Positions 28,986-38,875 of a stretch of 64,000 bases of DNA are shown here, piece by piece (position 1 is the first letter of the stretch; every line of letters starts with the position of its first letter). Made by a program: the position numbers and the translations under genes. The notes below the pieces were generated by a model. It saw only the letters and a program-made list of their open reading frames with translations, ran no database searches and was not told where the DNA came from. Source of the stretch: Spiroplasma apis B31 (GTDB taxonomy: Bacteria; Bacillota_I; Bacilli_A; Mycoplasmatales; Mycoplasmataceae). The DNA lies in the NCBI RefSeq assembly GCF_000500935.1, contig NC_022998.1, positions 124,001 to 188,000 of the forward strand, given 5' to 3'.

Positions 28986-29020
28986 AAAAGAGTAATAAAA
29001 GTTAAAACAAACACATTTAG

Positions 29021-29047
29021 AAAAACACCTTTGTGGTGTTTTTTCTT
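29021..29047 (+). terminator. Terminator after leuS
   Basis: AAAAACACC (29021-29029) pairs with GGTGTTTTT (29035-29043), 5-base loop, followed by T residues. Confidence 0.85.
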
Positions 29048-29261
29048 TTCTGAGTTTTATAATTAACGAAATAACAGGATAAATACTTTGTTGTATAACT
29101 GCTTTTATATTAAAATACTTTGCGATCATTTATTTTTTTTATATAAACTAGAAAATACTCTCCCGCACTAAAACCTGTGAAATTTGTTATTTTTTTTGGC
29201 ATAAAGATAATTAAACTCAAGGTGTTATAATTTATTTATATATTTAATTCGAGGTTAGATT
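29048..29261 (+). promoter_or_regulatory. Upstream region and promoter of the helicase-AAA-radical SAM operon
   Basis: AT-rich and without ORFs. An extended -10 TGTTATAAT lies at 29223-29231, and the first gene starts at 29262 after CGAGGTTAG. I see no clear -35, operator repeat or RNA fold. Confidence 0.5.
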
Positions 29262-32200
29262 ATGCAAAATATGATAAAGAATAATGAAAATAAAGAGATA
29301 TTTTTAGACTTTTCTTTTATGCAAAATGTACGCTTTAAAGAAAATCACAGCTCCTTGGATGAGATTATTGAAAAGCTTGAAATACAAAATGTAAAAACAT
29401 ATCAAGAGTTTTTATCTTTCTTGCGTAATTCAATAATGAAACAAGGTTTTATTTGTTTAGTGAATGATACTACAAGAAAAGTAAACTCAAAATCAAATGA
29501 AGATTATGTTTATGATGCGATAATCAGAATGGAACTAAATACAACTAGTCAAGAAAAGTTACCTAAGGAAACATACCTAGGTTTTTTTGTAAATATTAAT
29601 CCAAAGGCACCTGTATTAACTATAACTTCTATATTTCAAACTAGACTTTCAAATAAAGCCCAAGACTTTGAAACTACAATCGACGAAGCATCGATAGAAC
29701 TCATAAAATATAAAAACCAGTTTCAAACAGATGAACTACTAAGAAGGAATTTGTTAAACTCTAGCACTATAGAAAATATAGGTGTACTTGTTTCCAAGTT
29801 TATCGAAACTAAAAATAAATGATCAAATTATTTAAATTTCTTGACTGATTTATTAAGCGTTCAAAGAAAAGTGGCACTTCCATTTTTAAATTTAAGTTGA
29901 AGTAGAGTTGTTAAAGTTGAGAAAAAAGAATTTACTGATGACCTAAATTCTTTCATAGTATCTAAAACGAAAAACAAAAATTATTTTTATTTAAGTTTAG
30001 ATTCTATGACGTTACTTGAGAATAAAAATATTTATTTTGATGTGGTTGATCTTGTTACAATAGATTTATTAACAAATAATTTAGATAAAGTGAATAATTT
30101 TAAAGTTATGGAAAGTTTAGCTCTTATACCCTTGGTTAATAATAGAGCTCTTCCTTCTTTGTCAGAGTTTCAAAGAGACCCAGAAGTTTTGTTTGATTTC
30201 GAGTTAGATAAAAATAAGGATAGTAAGGAACTTCTTTCGCTCTCAGAGTTGGTTGCAATAGATGAAAAACAAATAAATTTTGTTTCCTATTGAGAAGAAA
30301 AGCAAAATATTTTTTTAGGCACAAGAAAAGATTTGAAAAGTATTCTAACTAAGCATGCAAATAAATTATCTGAGTGATTTGTTTTAAAAGTAACTTTTGA
30401 AACTGATTATTTTATAGAGACTACAAACATTAATGAGAAAAACATTATTGATACATACAAAACAGGTTATTTAGCTTACTCTGGTGTAGGAGAAGAGGTT
30501 TTAATTGAGAGAAGTAAACAAGTATTAAAAAGAATAGCAGAGGGAAATACCAAGAACCCTTACTTGATAAATTACTTGTTTAACACAAAATTATTAGAGC
30601 TAACAGAGAGTACTAATTTACAAGAATTAGAAAATTACAAATATGAGCTTAACCAAGAACAAAAAGAAGCTGTTAACAAAGCCTTAAACTCTAAAGATGT
30701 TTTCATTTTACAAGGTCCGCCAGGTACTGGTAAAACCCAAGTTATATGTGAAATAATTTATCAATTATCCCAAAAAAATAGAAAAGTTTTGATTTCAAGT
30801 CAAAATCATGAAGCTATTAAGAATGTAGTTGATCGCCTGCCATATGAACCAAATGTGAATAGATTAAGACTTACTAATAGATTAAATACTTCATCTAAGG
30901 CGCAAAATAATTTCTCCCCAGAGAGAGTTGTGTACAACTATTATAAATCTATAGCAAACTCAGTTTTTGAATACTTGAGAACAGAAAGTTTCTCGATCGA
31001 AGAATTTAATAATACTATTATGGAGTTGGAAAAACTTATAAATAATAGTAAAGGTTTTCACCAATTAAATAATAGTATAAGAGCCTTAGATATAGAAATT
31101 ACTACAATGAAATCTAATGTGCAAACATTTAAGTCTAAACGTAATGACTTGTTTAGAAAAAAAGATAAACTAAAAGATGAATTATTAAATTTAAAAAATT
31201 TTATAGAATTGCTGAGCACAAAAGATTTTAGTATGGCAATTGTAATAAGTGATAAATTAAAAAGTTTATATGAAATGAAGTATCAAAACTTATTCGATGA
31301 CTTTAAGTGAAATAATAATTTAAGCTTTATGATTAGCGAGAATTTTGTTAGAACTTTAGAAAACATTTGTGAAGAAGTTTTATTTAGTAATGACATCTAT
31401 AAAGAGATTGCAGCATTAAAAAGAGACATATACCAAAATAAAAAAATGGGTAATTTAGAGAATGTTTTAAAATTAGAAAGTCAGATATCCACACTTGAGA
31501 AAACTTTGGATGAAGTATCGTTAATAAAAGAATTTAATAACTTTCTTTTCTCCTTGAGCAAAGATTTAGATTTCTTAAAAACAGATCTAGAACATGAACT
31601 GTATGAAGTTGAATATTCTTTGGCTGATGATAGTATCATAAACAATCAAGAAGTTGAAATAAACAATTTAGAAGTAAAACTTCAAAAACTATATAAGTCA
31701 CGAACTGAGAATAATAAAGAACTCACAAGTTTATTGAAAAAAATAAATAACAAGTTCAACTTGAACCTAGATTTAAAAAATATCGATTTAGAAGAAATTC
31801 TTAGAGAAGAGTTGAATAGTTTTTCTAGTGAGTTGGAAGCAAAACAAAGTAAAAGAGAAGAACTGAATGAGTTTTATTCCTTGATAACAAGTTATCTTAA
31901 AGATAATTACAAGATAGAAGATGATTTTGACAGTGAAGTGGCAACAAATAACTTTACAGTACAAATGATACAAGAATCAAAAAAATATATGCCTACGCTT
32001 ATTAAAAATATTATAAATGTTTATGCGATGACTCTTACCTCATCAAACCTTTTCAAGTTTAATAAAAACGAGCAGGCAAATAAGTTAGGATTAGAAGAAA
32101 TTAGTTTAAAGTCAATAGATGTGGATGTTGTTATTATTGATGAAGCTTCAAAAGCAACTTTATTAGAAATACTTATGCCATTAATTTATGGGAAAACATT

Positions 32201-33101
32201 AATACTTGTAGGTGATTATAAACAGTTACCTCCAATTTTTAAACTTCAACCAAGTGATGTTAAAACAGTTAATGAGCAACTGGGAAAAGATTACGATTAT
32301 TATGAGTTGATGGAATTACTAGATCAATCCGCATTTAAAAACTTAGTTGGTGTTAATAAAAAAGAAATTACTACTCTATTAAGAACACAATATAGAAGTC
32401 ATCGTAAAATTATGGATATTGTTAATAAATTTTATGACGGCTTTCTTAAAGTAGAACAAAATGTTAGTGACCAAAAAGAACACAATCTTATAGTACTGGG
32501 TAATAAAAACAAAGAGATTATTAATCAAAATAGCTCTGTGTATTGAATAGACTCAACATATGATGAAAATGATGAAATATTCTTTGAACAGAGAGAAGAT
32601 AATTCAACAAGTATTTATAATGACTTAGAAGTTGAAATAACCATTAACATGGTATCTAAACTAAATGAGTCTGTTAAAAATTTATCTCTAGATAAAAAAC
32701 CAACACTAGCAATAATTAGTTTTTATGGTTTACATGTTAAAAAAATAAAAAACAAATTACGAAATCACAAGTTTAAAAATATAGAAATTGTTGTAAATAC
32801 AGTCGATGATTTTCAAGGGAAAGAGGCAGACTACGTAATAGTTAATATTGTCCGTAATCCTGCCAAGTTATCATCAAAGAGTGGCAGAGAGTTTTTAAAA
32901 AAATATGAGCGTATAAATGTCGCCTTTAGTAGAGCGCGAGAGCTTTTAATTATCGTTGGTTCAAAAAGAGCGGTTAATGATATCACAGTTAAAATACCGA
33001 AAACTTCAGACCCTAATATCATAAACACACACGAAATATACTCATCAATAATAGACAAAATTGAATATGATGGAAGTTTTTTAACTTTAAAAGATATTTA
33101 A
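29262..33101 (+). CDS. Large superfamily I (Upf1/DNA2-like) helicase with N-terminal domain and coiled-coil insertion
   Basis: First gene of the five-gene operon, 1279 residues. Residues 1-430 match nothing I recognise. Motif I is GPPGTGKTQ (Lys491) preceded by the Q-motif-like LNQEQKEAV; motif Ia SSQNHEAIKNV follows. A charged coiled-coil insertion spans roughly 555-900. Then come motif II DEAS (960-963), motif III VGDYKQLPPIF, motif IV RTQYRSHRKIM, motif V VDDFQGKEADYVIV and motif VI NVAFSRARELLIIVG. This is the AAA_11/AAA_12 SF1B layout used by 5'-3' RNA or DNA helicases. All core motifs are intact, so it should be an active ATPase. Its nucleic-acid substrate is unknown. Confidence 0.85.
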
Positions 33102-33114
33102 GAAGGAGGATAAG

Positions 33115-35382
33115 ATGGTTTTTGAAAAAATTGAAATTTTATATAACAAGAAAGTTTTACAACTAAAAATCAAGTACTCAGAAATAAGAAAACCAACTTT
33201 TCCTGAATTTGTGATTTTAGCAACTTTGATTACTCATCCGAATAAGAATCTCTCCATAAGAGAAATTCTTGAAAGAGACCTAAAGATAACAAACGCATAT
33301 ATTTTTGAACGAGCGCTTAAAGATTTAATTGACTTTGATATTGTTGAAACAAATAAGTCAAATGACATTTGAAGTATCTTAGATATGGATTTAAAAACCA
33401 AAGATATGTGGGTAAACGAAAAAATAAAAGAAAACTTTTTAAAAAAAATATACAGTATTTCACAATATAATAAATACCAAGATTTTAAACTTAGTTTTGA
33501 TCCTATTAAAAAAACTTATGAAAGAATTAGGGAAGTCAATTGAGATAAAAGAGTTTCAGGTGTTAAGTATAGTAGCTTAATCGAAGTAACAGAAAAACCT
33601 AACTTTTTTTATAACAATCATTTCTTAGAAGATGAAGCTATTGAGTTTATGGAAAAGAACAAAGAATTATTTGGTGAAAACTCTAAATTCATTCAGGTTG
33701 AACTTAAAGGTAAAAATGATACATTAGATCCTACATTTGTAGAACAAAATATTGATAATGTGCAAAAAGCAGTAGAAGGAAAACTTATAATAGAAAACAA
33801 TTGATTCAAAATTGAGACAAAAGAAAAAGTTATAGATAACTATCTTAAAAATAATGATGTTGCTCAGGTAGAAATAGCTAAGGGAGTTTTGAAAAAGTAT
33901 ACAAATAAATTGAAAGAGATTTTTATTCCCAAAACAAATGTTGGTATAGAAGGCACACATTATGACAATTTCTTTTCTTTGAATGATATTTCTAATCACT
34001 ATAATTGGTCACTTCTACTAATTAATGGTGAAGATATTTACTCAGTTGACAAACTTCTTAAAACTAAAGAGGTAACATCATGTTCGGACACTATAATTAT
34101 TTACAATTCTAAAATTAACAATAAATTGCTAGAAGTTTCAAACAACAAAAATATTGTTTATTTTGAAAACATGAATAATGAGTTTTTAAATGAGAGCTCA
34201 TTGATTTATGTTGACTCTGAAAACAAAGTTAAAGCATATACTTTGTTAGATAAATATTTGAATTACTTAGATTTCAAGACACCGGTTTTAGTTGAAAGTA
34301 AAAAATTAAAAGTTTTAAATTTAGATACTACTTTCAAAGACTCTTTTGTAAAAACACTAGAAAACTATCGTTGAGAACTAACACAAAAAGTTTTTACCAA
34401 TTCTGAGCTGATTTACACAGTGTCAAAAAAACTTGGTTTGGAGTTAGAACTTCAAAAAGTTCTTATCGCTTTTTTAAAGGAATGTTTAAAAAGTAATAAT
34501 GATATAAAGGAGATCAAAACAAGTTATGTTTTTGAAAATGACTCAGAAGGAATAAACTTTTTTGAAAAGTGCTTGTGTAAATGTATCATAGAGCTTACTA
34601 ATGACGACACTAGTTTTAATACATTGGAGTGAATTGAAAACTACAGTTTCAAAAAGTCTAAAAACCTATTTAGAGTATTGCAATCATTCTATAAAAATAC
34701 TTCAATAGAAAATATATTTTTGATTAACTCTATTTTAGAAAAAAATAACTTCGATGGCTGGTTGGAAAATCATAATGATTCGCTAGTAAATTTGTTATTG
34801 TATGCAAAAGATAATCTAAAAAAAGACTTAGTCGATGAAAATATGTTTGACTCTAAAACATGGCAACAGCATTCATTGTTGATAAACAAAGTAGGTGAGT
34901 TACTAAAAGATTTATATAACAATAACCTTGAAGAGGTTGAAGTTAACTACGAAAGCATCCTGAAAATAATTAGGGTTGTAACTAAAGAAAACTTAAGTAT
35001 GCAAAACTACAGTTCATATTTACAGGCCTTGGCGCTTTTATTGAACGAATTATACCCTTATTATTATGATGTAAAAAGAAAAGCATTGAGTGTAGAGGAC
35101 CATGATACAATAAACTATAAAGTTCAGCTATTAGCAGGAAATTATTTAAGCAAATGCGAAAAGGTTTTAGATTCGAATATTAAAGAAAACATATCTAGCT
35201 TTCCAATAGAGTTGAAACTAGCATGAAACAAGTATGTCGAAAATACAGATACAAAAAAAGAAAAATGAATTAATAAAAACGAAACAAATATATTTAAAGC
35301 ATTATGTATTATATTTGGTAAACAAAAAAACTTTAATAAGAAAGATCTGGACCATTATCAACAAGTCTTTGGAGGAAATTAA
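33115..35382 (+). CDS. 755-residue protein of unknown function, possible N-terminal winged helix
   Basis: Second gene of the operon, 13 bases after the helicase, with AAGGAGG before the ATG. Residues about 20-85 (PEFVILATLITHPN, LSIREILERD, AYIFERALKDLIDFDIVE) have the helix-helix-helix-wing rhythm of a winged helix-turn-helix. The rest is a mix of alpha/beta and helical sequence with no metal, nuclease or nucleotide motif I can identify. Several UGA Trp codons are needed to join it. The ribosome-binding site of the next gene (GGAGG at 35371) lies inside its last codons. Low similarity to known families suggests fast evolution. Confidence 0.7.
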
Positions 35383-35383
35383 T

Positions 35384-36472
35384 ATGAGTATGTCAGCACA
35401 ACAAGTATTACTTAATTGTAAAAAACATTTTGAGTTAATCAAAAAAGATTTAAAACTTTTACTAAGTTACATAAAAGAAGAAATAGAGAAGTGCAAAATG
35501 ATTGACGCCTCAAATTTTCATCAAGAGGAGATTAATAAACTATATAAGGAAGTAGAAAAAGAACTTTTAGATATGAGCATTGCAGATGAAATGGCTAAGG
35601 AAGTTCAAAAAGACGAACACATAGCAATAGAACAATATAATAAAATTAATAATTATTTAGAAAGAAAAAGAGAAACTATTGCAGATTTAAAAACTAAAGT
35701 TTTTATTTATAAAAAAGATATTGTCAATACAGAACAAAAGTTTATTTCCAATGCCCTTATAAATAAGAGTTATGCTAGTTTTCAAGAACTTGTACAAGGA
35801 ATTATTCAAAGCCAAGTATCGACAGATGATAAGATACTTGTAAAAAAGTTTCTAATAGATAACGAAGTTAGATTAATAAATTTACCTAAAAACGATGTTA
35901 TAGAGGAAGCTAAAAACTACATTTTTAATCAAAAACAAAAACCAGAGTACATTATTAATGATGTTGTAAAAAGTTCGATTGAATATATTAAAGATGAAGA
36001 AGGTATGGAAGATTATCTTAAAGATGAAGTCTCAACTTTTAAAGAAGTTACGAATGAACAAAACTTATTCAAAAACGTTAAAAGTTATTTTATAAACGCA
36101 TCTAAGAGTACAGAGAGTGAGTTAGTAAGAAGAGACAACGTAATAAAAATAGTGAATGCAATAAGAAGCATAGGATACGTAGTCAATCCCGAGAATATCA
36201 TTAATAAAAAAGAAAAAAATGTCATCTTCATTCATGGGGAAAAACCATCTGGTGAGACTGCTGACTTTGCAGTAAGATTGGATGGAAGCTTCATATATAA
36301 CTATGAAGGCTTTGAAAATCACGATCATGATGAAGATGCAAACGACTTTATGAAAAAGTTGAAAGAGTTTGGTTTGTCCTCAAGTGAGGCTTATAAAAAA
36401 GTATACAGAGAGCCAAAATATGTGGCAGATGTAAAAAAACTTCATAAAAAGAAGTACAATTCAAGTAAGTAG
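35384..36472 (+). CDS. Coiled-coil protein with small C-terminal beta-rich module, unknown function
   Basis: Third gene of the operon, 362 residues. The ATG at 35384 is chosen because GGAGG sits 8 bases upstream; the frame is open further upstream without a site. Residues 1-130 are charged helices likely to form a coiled coil (EEINKLYKEVEKELLDMS, KINNYLERKRETIADL). The C-terminal 110 residues differ: NAIRSIGYVV, FIHGEKPSGETADFAVRLDG, YNYEGFENHDHDEDA, FMKKLKEFGLSSSEAY. The dG-x(4)-yEGF-x-H/C-x(3)-D pattern faintly recalls small DUF2997-like modules found beside AAA+ genes. That resemblance is by eye only. No enzymatic motif. Confidence 0.65.
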   Translation: MSMSAQQVLLNCKKHFELIKKDLKLLLSYIKEEIEKCKMIDASNFHQEEINKLYKEVEKELLDMSIADEMAKEVQKDEHIAIEQYNKINNYLERKRETIADLKTKVFIYKKDIVNTEQKFISNALINKSYASFQELVQGIIQSQVSTDDKILVKKFLIDNEVRLINLPKNDVIEEAKNYIFNQKQKPEYIINDVVKSSIEYIKDEEGMEDYLKDEVSTFKEVTNEQNLFKNVKSYFINASKSTESELVRRDNVIKIVNAIRSIGYVVNPENIINKKEKNVIFIHGEKPSGETADFAVRLDGSFIYNYEGFENHDHDEDANDFMKKLKEFGLSSSEAYKKVYREPKYVADVKKLHKKKYNSSK

Positions 36473-36480
36473 GTGTAAAT

Positions 36481-38292
36481 ATGAGTGTTAAAAAACAGTT
36501 GGAACAATTAAAAAATATTATAGGGATAAAAAAAGTCATCATATTAGAGGGAAATGTTGACGATATTTATGAGTTGGAAGGTAGATATGTAAATGTCCAT
36601 GAGTACTTAAAAACAGTATTCAATGAGAAAAATTTCTCTGACATATTCATTTATGACACAAACTCTGGTCTAAGAGGAAGCAAAATGAGCTCATTGATAT
36701 TGACAAATGAAGATAAGAAAGCGGCTTCCAATACAAGTTATAATGAGTTTGAAGAACTTTTTGAAAACAATAAACAAACAGATGATAGTTCTTCAGAAGT
36801 GAGAAAGCCAATCGATTTTTTTAAAGTGTTGAATAAAAACTTGAATAGGGAAGATGATAAAACAATCGGTTTCATTGCCGACTACACTAACTTTGTTTTT
36901 AATGAACAATCAATGGATATCGAAGATCGATTTGTCCTAACGGAGTTCTCTAAAACTTTAAAAGAGTTTAAGTTTGTTATATCAAGAATAGATGAGTTAA
37001 CAAGTTGTGTTATATTTATCACAAAAAAAATTAATCAACTTCCGCCAAGTTTTTATTTAGACAATCCAGAAATTTTAATAAGTACTTTACCAAAGCCTAG
37101 TAGAGAAGAACGCAAACAGTTTTTAAGTACTGTAAAAGTTAGAATATCATTAATTGATGTCAATGAAGAGTTTGAAAATATAGTAGATGCTACAGAGGGA
37201 TGAACAATCAAAGAGTTGTCTCACTTTGTAAAATTTACTTGCAATTTCAGACAAACGCTAACATTTGCTAATATGATGAACATATATAAATATGGTGACA
37301 AGGTATCTCCTTGGGAAGAATTGAATTATGAGAAAATGTTATCTATCAAAAGTGAGTTGAGCAAACGAGTTATAGGACAAGATGACGCAATTGAAAAAGT
37401 TACCAGAGTTATTTACAAAGCTTTCACCGGTTTAACTGGAATAACTTACTCTGCTAGTCGTTCAAAACCTAAGGGAACGTTATTTTTTGTGGGTCCAACA
37501 GGTACGGGTAAGACTGAGTTAGCGAAAGCAATAACAAAGTTTTTATTTAATGATGAAGCTAACTTAATTAGATTTGATATGTCTGAGTATGGCCAAGACA
37601 ACGCAGATCAAAAGTTGATAGGAGCGCCCCCTGGATATGTTGGGTTTGAAGGTGGTGGACAGCTAACAAATGCTGTTAAAGAAAAGCCTTTTAGTGTAGT
37701 TTTATTTGATGAGATTGAAAAAGCTAGTCCTAAAATTTTTGATAAGTTTTTACAAATCCTTGAGGATGGTAGACTTACAGATAACACTGGACAAACTATA
37801 AGTTTTAGTGAAACATTTATAATATTCACATCAAATATAGGTGCAGCAGACGTATCACCAAATCAGAGCAAAGAGGAAATATTTAAAGACTTCATCAAAA
37901 AAGTACACAATCATTTCACAAACGAGTTAAATAGACCCGAGTTATTAGGGAGATTTGGAAATAACATCGTTCCATTCAACTTTATTAAAGATGTTTCAAT
38001 GAAAGCGGCAATTATAAAACAAAAAATTAGACCACTTCAGATGGCTATATATGAAAAATACAAAGTGGAGCTTCACATAGATCTTTCAAATCCAACAATA
38101 TTATCAATTTTGTTAAAAGATGCAGATGAAAGAAGAGGTGGGCGTGATGTGGTTAACTCTTTAGAATCAAACCTTGTCGACCCTCTCTCAGAGTTTATTT
38201 TTGAGAATTTACCTTCAATGAAACCGGGAAGTAAAATAAAAACAATTGATACTACCAATAAATTAGGTTTCCAATTTTATGGCGAATATTAA
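36481..38292 (+). CDS. ClpB/ClpA-like AAA+ ATPase with degenerate N-terminal AAA domain
   Basis: Fourth gene, 603 residues. The C-terminal half is a standard Clp D2 domain: Walker A GPTGTGKTE (Lys344), Walker B VVLFDEIEKA, pore loop GYVGFEGGGQL, sensor 1 FTSN, arginine finger RPELLGRFG and a sensor 2 region with RRGGRD. Residues 1-240 look like an AAA fold without Walker A (ILEGNVDDIYEL, IGFIADYTNFV). There is no Clp N-domain, middle domain or ClpP-binding IGF loop that I can see. This argues against the general disaggregase ClpB and for an operon-specific remodeller. It overlaps the radical-SAM gene by 14 bases. Confidence 0.85.
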
Positions 38293-38875
38293 TGTAGGCA
38301 AATTTTTAATGAACAGTGATATTGAGGGACCAGGAACAAGATTTGTTTTATGATTTCAAGGATGTAACATTGGGTGTAATGGTTGTTCCAATCAAGAACT
38401 TTTACCATTAGAACCAAAGTTTTTCATGCCTACAAGTTATATTTTTGAAAAGATTGTTGAAGCCAAAGAAAAATTTAATATAGAAGGAGTAACCTTAATC
38501 GGAGGCGAACCCTTCTTACAACCCGACGGTCTAAAAGAAATAGTAGACTTTTGTTACAACAAAGATTTAACTGTAATATGTTTCACTGGTTATATATACG
38601 AGAAACTTTTAGAGGAACACCAAGATATTCTCTCGAAAATAGATATTTTAATTGATGGGCCATTCATTATGAAACTTTTAGATAGAAAAAGAAGACTTAT
38701 AGGAAGTAAAAATCAAAGAGTTCATAAATTATCGGAGAAATACAAAAATTGTGATTATTTTGAGCAACCACACTCTGAGGTTGAAATTCAACTTTATAAT
38801 AATAGGCTAGCTATAAATGGCGATGGAGTTGTATTTGATGATGAAAATGGCAAGTTTAATTTTAAAATCGAGTAA
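38279..38875 (+). CDS. Radical-SAM 4Fe-4S protein of the NrdG/PflA activase type
   Basis: Fifth gene, 198 residues. The start DIEGPGTRFVLWFQGC is followed by the cluster motif C-x3-C-x2-C (Cys29, Cys33, Cys36), then the SAM-binding GGEPFLQPDGL segment. This is the short activase form that installs glycyl radicals or acts on a dedicated partner. No glycyl-radical enzyme such as NrdD or PflB occurs in the window, and the gene overlaps the AAA+ gene by 14 bases, so it belongs functionally to this operon. The C-terminal ~30 residues form an extra beta segment (EIQLYNNRLAINGDG). A true anaerobic RNR activase cannot be excluded without the rest of the genome. Confidence 0.85.

Follow-up and report, generated by a model that had tools for sequence, protein, structure and literature searches.

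A possible RNA-cutting immune system of an undescribed kind, kept as a core operon in a Spiroplasma-like lineage

Several described conflict systems share a component with the operon studied here. Mokosh combines an SMUBP2-like SF1 helicase (MkoA) with a phospholipase D (MkoB), and Dodola (DolA, DolB) contains a ClpB-like AAA protein; one B. cereus locus has been named both Dodola and PDC-M37 (PMC11811056). The HEPN RNase effectors, among them the DUF4145 family, AbiA, Cas13, and RnlA, are helical bundles with an RNxxxH motif. In the FtsH ternary conflict systems, a radical-SAM enzyme was proposed to modify a peptide effector (PMC7159879). The ClpB/ClpC disaggregases and the NrdG/PflA activases are the other points of comparison.

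An earlier note, made from the letters of the window (the whole 64,000-nucleotide stretch of Spiroplasma apis B31 that was analyzed), had pointed to five genes as one functional system with a gene set not known from any described defence system. No such set was found in the defence libraries or in the literature searched, a scope that leaves outside bioRxiv and most subscription journals. The cassette formed by these genes spans at least five bacterial phyla as one unit.

Layout of the operon and its proteins

With genetic code 4 (TGA = W) used for the ORF calls in the window, the following features were located.

29020-29044, + strand: terminator-like hairpin after the preceding gene; left edge of the operon
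29262-33101, + strand: HEL, SF1B Upf1/SMUBP2-like helicase, 1279 aa; Pfam AAA_11/AAA_12 (1.7e-30, 6.3e-39)
30714-30737, + strand: HEL motif I, GPPGTGKT, aa 485-492; identical in 42/42 aligned members
32139-32150, + strand: HEL motif II, DEAS, aa 960-963; D, E, and S identical in 42/42
33115-35382, + strand: P2, 755 aa; parts assigned by homology
34912-35379, + strand: P2 C-terminal region, ~aa 600-755; positional equivalent of the HEPN domain of relatives
35384-36472, + strand: P3, coiled-coil protein, 362 aa; strong profile matches fall inside the cassette
36116-36424, + strand: P3 conserved C-terminal domain, aa 245-347; six residues identical in 42/42
36481-38292, + strand: AAA, 603 aa; ClpB/ClpC D2 matches in PDB, and alignment
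37492-37515, + strand: AAA D2 Walker A, GPTGTGKT, aa 338-345; conserved in 42/42, except T342
38279-38875, + strand: RSAM, small NrdG/PflA-type radical-SAM protein, 198 aa; Pfam Fer4_12 (8.3e-33)
38363-38386, + strand: RSAM [4Fe-4S]/SAM motif CNIGCNGC (C29, C33, C36); three Cys identical in 42/42

The five ORFs, their gaps of 13, 1, and 8 bases, and the final 14-base overlap agree with the coordinates given before. The longest ORF of gene 3 opens at 35234, and the 362-aa start at 35384 is supported by an M-S start common to the relatives. The hairpin behind the upstream gene supports the left edge of the operon. Of the single promoter-like element that the earlier note placed ahead of the operon, the extended -10 can be read directly from the sequence (TGTTATAAT, 29223-29231); as a signal it is weak, with promoter-like matches at shuffle level (59 in the stretch vs 56.2 in shuffles, sd 7.4).

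The SF1B motif set attributed to the helicase is present, its residues being conserved in the alignment of 42 members, and a long insertion (~aa 530-930) separates motifs Ia and II. The nearest solved relatives of HEL are SMUBP-2, DNA2, SEN1, and UPF1. The AAA protein likewise has the expected Clp D2 domain (ClpB-type, aa 280-592), which follows a family-specific N-terminal domain (aa 1-279). Against the ClpB model, D2 alone matches (258 bits vs a cut-off of 1232), and the full N-D1-M-D2 architecture of ClpB was not found in AAA. Walker B (D410-E411), sensor N452, and R491 are invariant in the 42 aligned members. Profiles gave no support for a degenerate AAA or Ycf46-like domain at the N-terminus of this protein.

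Strong P3 profile matches sit in the cassette in all genomes inspected, also on plasmids. Six P3 residues (E246, R249, G290, Y305, D318, and P344) are invariant in 42/42, and the first strand and the C-terminus make one compact domain. The best structural match of a P3 homologue model (pLDDT 79.1) was the spermine synthase N-domain (Z 13.0, rmsd 2.7, 98 aligned). A relationship to DUF2997/DUF1257 (Ycf35), suspected on inspection and from a single sub-threshold match (0.17), was not confirmed in a 45-member scan. When viral models were searched with the P3 model, Foldseek returned nothing under 0.001, and no P3 homologue turned up in the phage collection; an IMG/VR search matched one contig. 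Profile searches of P2, P3, and the AAA N-terminus against solved structures gave nothing significant.

Distribution, co-divergence, and neighborhoods

Identical gene set and order were found in 20/20 congeneric genomes and in sister genera, the cassette being present in 20/20, 13/14, and 3/3 genomes of the Spiroplasma-type lineage, where it is vertically inherited and almost universal. In many congeners it occupies a fixed place behind leuS, and one congener (L044) carries a broken copy. In six related genera, 20/20 genomes lack the cassette, and E. coli genomes gave only short ClpB-type matches. The same five-gene order recurs in ~42/50 distant loci of Bacillota, Bacteroidota, Planctomycetota, Campylobacterota, and Pseudomonadota, with a nearly always complete gene set, and the full cassette is carried by five proteobacterial plasmid types, among them plasmids of Polaromonas and Photobacterium with a PIN-type cassette.

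The arrangement is beyond chance, since the five-gene order is identical in dozens of genomes. The five proteins also co-diverge (distance-matrix r 0.85-0.97 vs permutation maxima ≤0.35), and host phyla are intermixed in the AAA tree. Conserved order, co-divergence, and shared transfer thus strongly support one functional system, and gene order across genomes places the homologues together rather than apart. All five genes are under strong purifying selection among congeners and relatives (dN/dS 0.02-0.30), with AAA and RSAM as low as leuS.

In three of the five plasmid types, restriction, ArdA, DarT, TIR, or HsdR genes lie near the cassette, and a serine integrase lies beside it at one locus (L142). 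RNase III-like, DEDD-type exonuclease, and HTH genes are recurrent neighbors, and a divergent copy lacking the radical-SAM gene adjoins AIPR, HATPase, Z1, and DUF4420 genes. Many distant neighborhoods are mixed, and a PADLOC/Pfam flank scan, run without a matched control and from which no enrichment is claimed, showed no uniform signature of a defence island. The defence-like character proposed earlier is plausible for the wider family, being supported by its plasmids, patchy distribution, some defence neighbors, and HEPN/PIN domains. In the window's lineage the RNase site is lost, and near-universality is unusual for a defence system and closer to a core function.

The RNase end of P2 and the radical-SAM partner

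By homology, P2 consists of a winged-helix N-terminus, a middle domain, an alpha-solenoid, and a C-terminal HEPN-equivalent region, although a Pfam scan of the window's own P2 returned no match. For the winged helix, which had been raised as a possibility, a MarR match (Z 6.9) in the model of a relative lends modest support. In distant P2s, R674, R677, N678, and H682 are invariant in 35/35, forming an RNxxxH motif in a helical C-terminal domain; the Rx4-6H motif is present in all HEPN-type members displayed, and Pfam DUF4145 (HEPN) matches 26/41 P2 homologues. In a second branch and in the plasmid copies, a PIN domain replaces HEPN at the P2 C-terminus (PIN_4 to 1.2e-20), with conserved acidic residues visible in the alignment and PIN annotations in the plasmid records.

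Foldseek of the P2 model against PDB gave nothing under 0.001, and the middle part of a homologue model (pLDDT 89.8) had no clear structural match. Matches to the C-terminus of this model include AbiA, Cas13bt3, and RnlA, but their Z of 5-7.5 is in the chance range for helical bundles, and the HEPN assignment is carried by the sequence motif and Pfam. On these grounds P2 is likely the effector of the system. In the window's P2 and 14 other aligned same-family copies (15/15), Rx4-6H was not found in the last 110 aa, and as judged from the alignment the window's lineage has lost the HEPN active site. The helicase motifs, the AAA site, and CxxxCxxC are intact there despite this loss.

The NrdG/PflA-type cluster motif CxxxCxxC reported for the last protein is present, and its GGEP (aa 75-78) is identical in 42/42. 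NrdG is the best named model for RSAM (88.8-92.8 bits, below the cut-off of 126.1), and RSAM lacks the combination of score and NrdD partner that defines a curated NrdG. In the same genome, a true NrdG (157.9 bits) adjoins NrdD (G000:C1:960712-963222), and PflA adjoins PflB elsewhere. With both pairs already in place, the third activase, RSAM, probably acts inside the cassette system, and its substrate becomes a sharply posed question. The suggestion of a glycyl radical in P2 or P3 was not supported, as the alignments, when read through, showed no canonical RVxGY-type motif. RSAM shows a weak profile similarity to prokaryotic viperins (1.5e-8), its 28.9 bits not reaching the curated pVip score (cut-off 180).

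Readings of the cassette and comparison with known systems

Beyond the unit, its conservation and spread, its domains, the HEPN motif loss, and purifying selection established here, we infer a defence role, RNA as the target, an order of events, and a radical-SAM substrate. We lean, at slightly better than even, toward one multi-protein, RNA-directed conflict (anti-phage/anti-plasmid) system that was domesticated in Spiroplasma-type mollicutes. The Upf1-like helicase would engage RNA that is foreign or aberrant, or else an RNA-DNA hybrid. P2 would join a winged helix to an effector RNase domain, HEPN in most relatives and PIN in the plasmid/proteobacterial branch, and P3 would be the scaffold of the complex. 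The Clp-type AAA could then remodel the complex, releasing or resetting P2, while RSAM might modify a protein of the complex by radical chemistry and so arm or tune it when oxygen is low. As the HEPN site is gone while both motors and RSAM are kept, the system of the window's lineage most likely now serves to sense, bind, or clear RNA-protein complexes, with no HEPN cleavage by the system itself. Only tentatively do we go further and propose a new immune system in which a HEPN/PIN RNase is controlled by a Upf1-like helicase, a Clp unfoldase, and an RSAM of the glycyl-radical-activase type that modifies a protein of the complex, a mobile system that Spiroplasma-type mollicutes would have made into a core function with a dead RNase site.

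Near-universality in the lineage, the fixed site behind leuS in many congeners, leuS-level dN/dS of AAA and RSAM, and the lost HEPN site would also suit housekeeping RNA/RNP quality control in Spiroplasma-type mollicutes, where helicase and unfoldase clear stalled RNA-protein complexes whatever the relatives do. We consider this rather unlikely, given that the 20 genomes of six related genera lack the cassette, that a congener carries a broken copy, and that the relatives are mobile and keep their RNase motifs. Plasmid carriage, the adjacent integrase, the RNase domains, and the nearly always complete gene set could instead reflect a plasmid/element-maintenance or toxin-antitoxin-like module in which P3 and AAA restrain the RNase; however, a set of five large co-diverging genes, a helicase and an unfoldase among them, far exceeds the usual toxin-antitoxin size, and the cassette is chromosomal and fixed in one clade, making such a module improbable.

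It is decidedly improbable that the operon is a nucleic-acid modification or repair device, with RSAM modifying bases that the helicase exposes. The two proteins share an operon and RSAM is weakly viperin-like by profile, but its viperin score is far under the cut-off, it belongs to the small NrdG/PflA type that activates proteins and has no RNA-binding domain added, and the part exchanged between branches is the RNase. Hardly credible, and largely contradicted already, is an anaerobic metabolism in which RSAM activates PFL or class III ribonucleotide reductase and keeps company with the operon by chance: NrdG is the best named model and the genome has NrdD and PFL, yet each of these has its own adjacent activase, and RSAM co-diverges with the other four genes across phyla.

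If the RNA-directed conflict system is the correct reading, the toolkit of RNA-directed immunity would gain a Clp unfoldase together with a radical-SAM protein activase, a combination that would be new relative to the defence libraries and literature searched. It would also be a clear example of how, in a reduced genome, a mobile conflict system can turn into a core operon that is near-universal and has lost its RNase site.

Compared with known systems, the best PADLOC match of HEL is the SMUBP2-like SF1 helicase MkoA of Mokosh (1.1e-95), a strong match over the helicase core common to many SF1B helicases. Mokosh has no counterpart of the other four genes; no phospholipase D domain was matched among the five operon proteins or among relatives of P2 and P3, the nuclease role of the cassette falling to HEPN/PIN. 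AAA resembles PDC-M37B (6e-34) and DolB of Dodola (1.8e-21), but over the generic Clp D2, and PADLOC scans matched no cassette protein to DolA. Like the ClpB/ClpC disaggregases, AAA has an intact D2 (Walker A/B, GYVG pore loop, and sensors), though the N-domain, D1, and M-domain of ClpB are not matched in it. RSAM has the CxxxCxxC, GGEP, and near-NrdG size of the NrdG/PflA activases, but scores below the NrdG cut-off in a cassette without a glycyl-radical enzyme. The FtsH ternary systems also have a radical-SAM member in a conflict setting, with vWA, MoxR, and FtsH as partners and no helicase plus HEPN/PIN set found in the portion of PMC7159879 considered. With the HEPN RNase effectors, finally, the P2 relatives share the RNxxxH helical bundle at their C-terminus, but here HEPN lies within a 700-aa winged-helix/solenoid protein belonging to a fixed five-gene set.

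The five-gene operon and its spread

Translation of the window with genetic code 4 bore out the five open reading frames that the earlier note had read from the sequence, on the + strand at 29262-38875, the first four separated by 13, 1, and 8 bases and the last two overlapping by 14 bases; the surrounding genome is a single contig of 1.16 Mb. The first gene encodes an SF1B helicase (HEL) of the Upf1/SMUBP2 group according to Pfam and solved-structure matches, and its helicase motif residues are conserved in 42 members. The fourth protein, a Clp-like ATPase (AAA), carries a family-specific N-terminal domain followed by a ClpB-type D2 domain in which Walker A, Walker B, the GYVG pore loop, and the sensors are all intact. 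The fifth is a small radical-SAM protein (RSAM) of the NrdG/PflA type, with CxxxCxxC and GGEP kept in 42/42 members. No above-threshold Pfam family was found for the second and third proteins of the window (P2 and P3).

The operon is present in all 20 genomes of the genus, and the 19 congeners examined keep the gene order with nearly equal lengths. One congener, G042 (L044, G042:C1:166600-185600), has broken HEL, P2, and RSAM genes and open P3 and AAA genes, reflecting either ongoing decay or assembly errors. Full-length AAA was found in 13 of 14 genomes of a sister genus, 3 of 3 of another genus of the family, and none of 20 from six further same-family genera; single genomes of three more also carry AAA, one copy being partial. 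Some sister-genus genomes have additional genes between P3 and AAA (loci L077 and L082), so the operon tolerates interruption there.

In the rest of the phylum, beyond the family, seven of ~330 sampled genomes were positive, six with the five-gene set and one with the last three genes. The AAA N-terminal profile, run against ~85,000 species genomes, gave 49 loci, which with one viral contig make up 50 distant loci. The order HEL-P2-P3-AAA-RSAM is found at ~42 of these 50, the P2 gene being assigned by position in a few, and most exceptions are fragments or contig-end loci.

Two congeners, G028 and G041, harbor a second, divergent copy. That of G028 (L146, G028:C1:782000-801000) reads HEL-598 aa-341 aa-AAA without RSAM, which suggests that RSAM is dispensable in some variants. 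Directly after it come AIPR, HATPase_c_3, Z1, and DUF4420 genes, as is typical of conflict loci of the restriction type. The G041 copy is similar, with a shorter ORF at the P2 position, and fragments were seen in G031, G045, and G046.

P2 as likely effector

HEPN-type relatives of P2 share the C-terminal motif LR..RN...H, with R674, R677, N678, and H682 invariant in 35 aligned sequences. Pfam DUF4145, a HEPN family (PMC3710099), matches 26 of 41 P2 members. In one relative, modelled with AlphaFold (pLDDT 89.8), the N-terminus forms a MarR-like winged helix (2qww, Z 6.9, 79 aligned). Its helical C-terminus matches, among others, AbiA (8oz7, Z 7.5, rmsd 3.4, 97 aligned), Cas13bt3 (7vti, Z 6.3, 77 aligned), and RnlA (4i8o, Z 5.0, 95 aligned), in portions that are HEPN domains, although Z values of this size, taken alone, are no proof for helical bundles; the HEPN assignment is carried by the sequence motif. 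In a second P2 branch, a PIN domain occupies the HEPN position (PIN_4, down to 1.2e-20). That one RNase fold has replaced another at this position suggests that the system acts by cutting RNA.

None of the 15 aligned same-family P2 copies has the Rx4-6H motif at its C-terminus. Since the catalytically dead HEPN domain of Swt1 has been suggested to bind or sense RNA (PMC3710099), it is reasonable to infer by analogy that the equivalent region of P2 in the window's lineage might bind RNA. Among relatives, dN/dS is 0.02-0.30 for all five genes; constraint on AAA and RSAM is close to that on leuS, and P2 and P3 evolve fastest. The operon sits behind leuS in many congeners, and in this lineage it looks like a domesticated mobile system.

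A possible partner for the radical-SAM protein

The genome's PFL has an adjoining PflA and its NrdD an adjoining NrdG, which scores 157.9 bits, above the NrdG cut-off of 126.1; the operon RSAM, at 88.8 bits, falls below it. As PFL and NrdD each have their own activase, RSAM is a third activase with no known partner. Because its gene is so tightly linked to the other four, its substrate is likely to be a protein of the proposed complex, P3 being one candidate. The P3 model (pLDDT 79.1) forms a single compact domain from the first strand and the C-terminus, best matched by the spermine synthase N-domain (Z 13.0, rmsd 2.7, 98 aligned), and E246, R249, G290, Y305, D318, and P344 are invariant. No radical site was identified.

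In the same genome, an in-frame stop separates the PFL body from its glycyl-radical domain (RVSGYAV), which restarts as a 78-aa ORF; this is a split gene, decay, or a sequencing error.

L145:6184-6453 (G000:C1 ~110183-110452), outside the window: PFL interruption

Transfer, surroundings, and known systems

The five proteins diverge in step, with pairwise distance-matrix correlations of r 0.85-0.97 against permutation maxima of ≤0.35, and host phyla are intermingled in the AAA tree, indicating that the five genes travel together. A Prevotellaceae copy clusters with those of Helicobacteraceae, and among the Lachnospiraceae and Ruminococcus copies there are some from Planctomycetota and Paludibacter. 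Metagenome-contig hosts may be mis-binned, making individual placements less certain, but the overall picture survives because complete plasmid records agree: Photobacterium, Polaromonas, Moellerella, Acinetobacter, and Leisingera plasmids carry the cassette, annotated in the order AAA domain, PIN domain, hypothetical, AAA family ATPase, 4Fe-4S single cluster. More radical-SAM genes lie near plasmid cassettes, two in Photobacterium and one in Acinetobacter (L152:5410-7478 and L155:17236-18222).

Some neighbors recur among the distant loci. Nine have an HTH-like gene upstream; downstream, six have an RNase III-like gene, matched by Pfam Ribonuclease_3 in four (down to 2.2e-11), and four have a DEDD-type exonuclease, matched by Pfam RNase_T in two. 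A conserved gene of ~310 aa lies upstream at L093:1308-2234 and five other loci; it has no family match at these six loci and is a possible sixth component. At L142 the cassette adjoins a large serine integrase (phrog_95, 4.5e-135). The ORF upstream at L094:15-1433 is a chimera, a phage tail/minor head protein at its N-terminus followed by the C-terminus of a large serine integrase, which resembles the outcome of an element inserting into a tail gene. AbaSI endonuclease, restriction subunit S, and ArdA genes are near the Moellerella plasmid cassette, DarT near that of Acinetobacter, and HsdR-N and TIR genes near that of Photobacterium. The remaining neighborhoods are mixed, and a PADLOC scan of the flanks found scattered defence genes in no uniform pattern.

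No model in PADLOC 2.0.0, NCBIfam 20.0, or Pfam covers the five-gene set, and a literature search found no description of it. The nearest library models are the Mokosh helicase for HEL and the Clp-type protein of Dodola/PDC-M37 for AAA (PMC11811056). We rate the cassette as new as a system built from parts of known kinds; under a broader view that lumps every helicase-nuclease defence system together, it would be a further variant.
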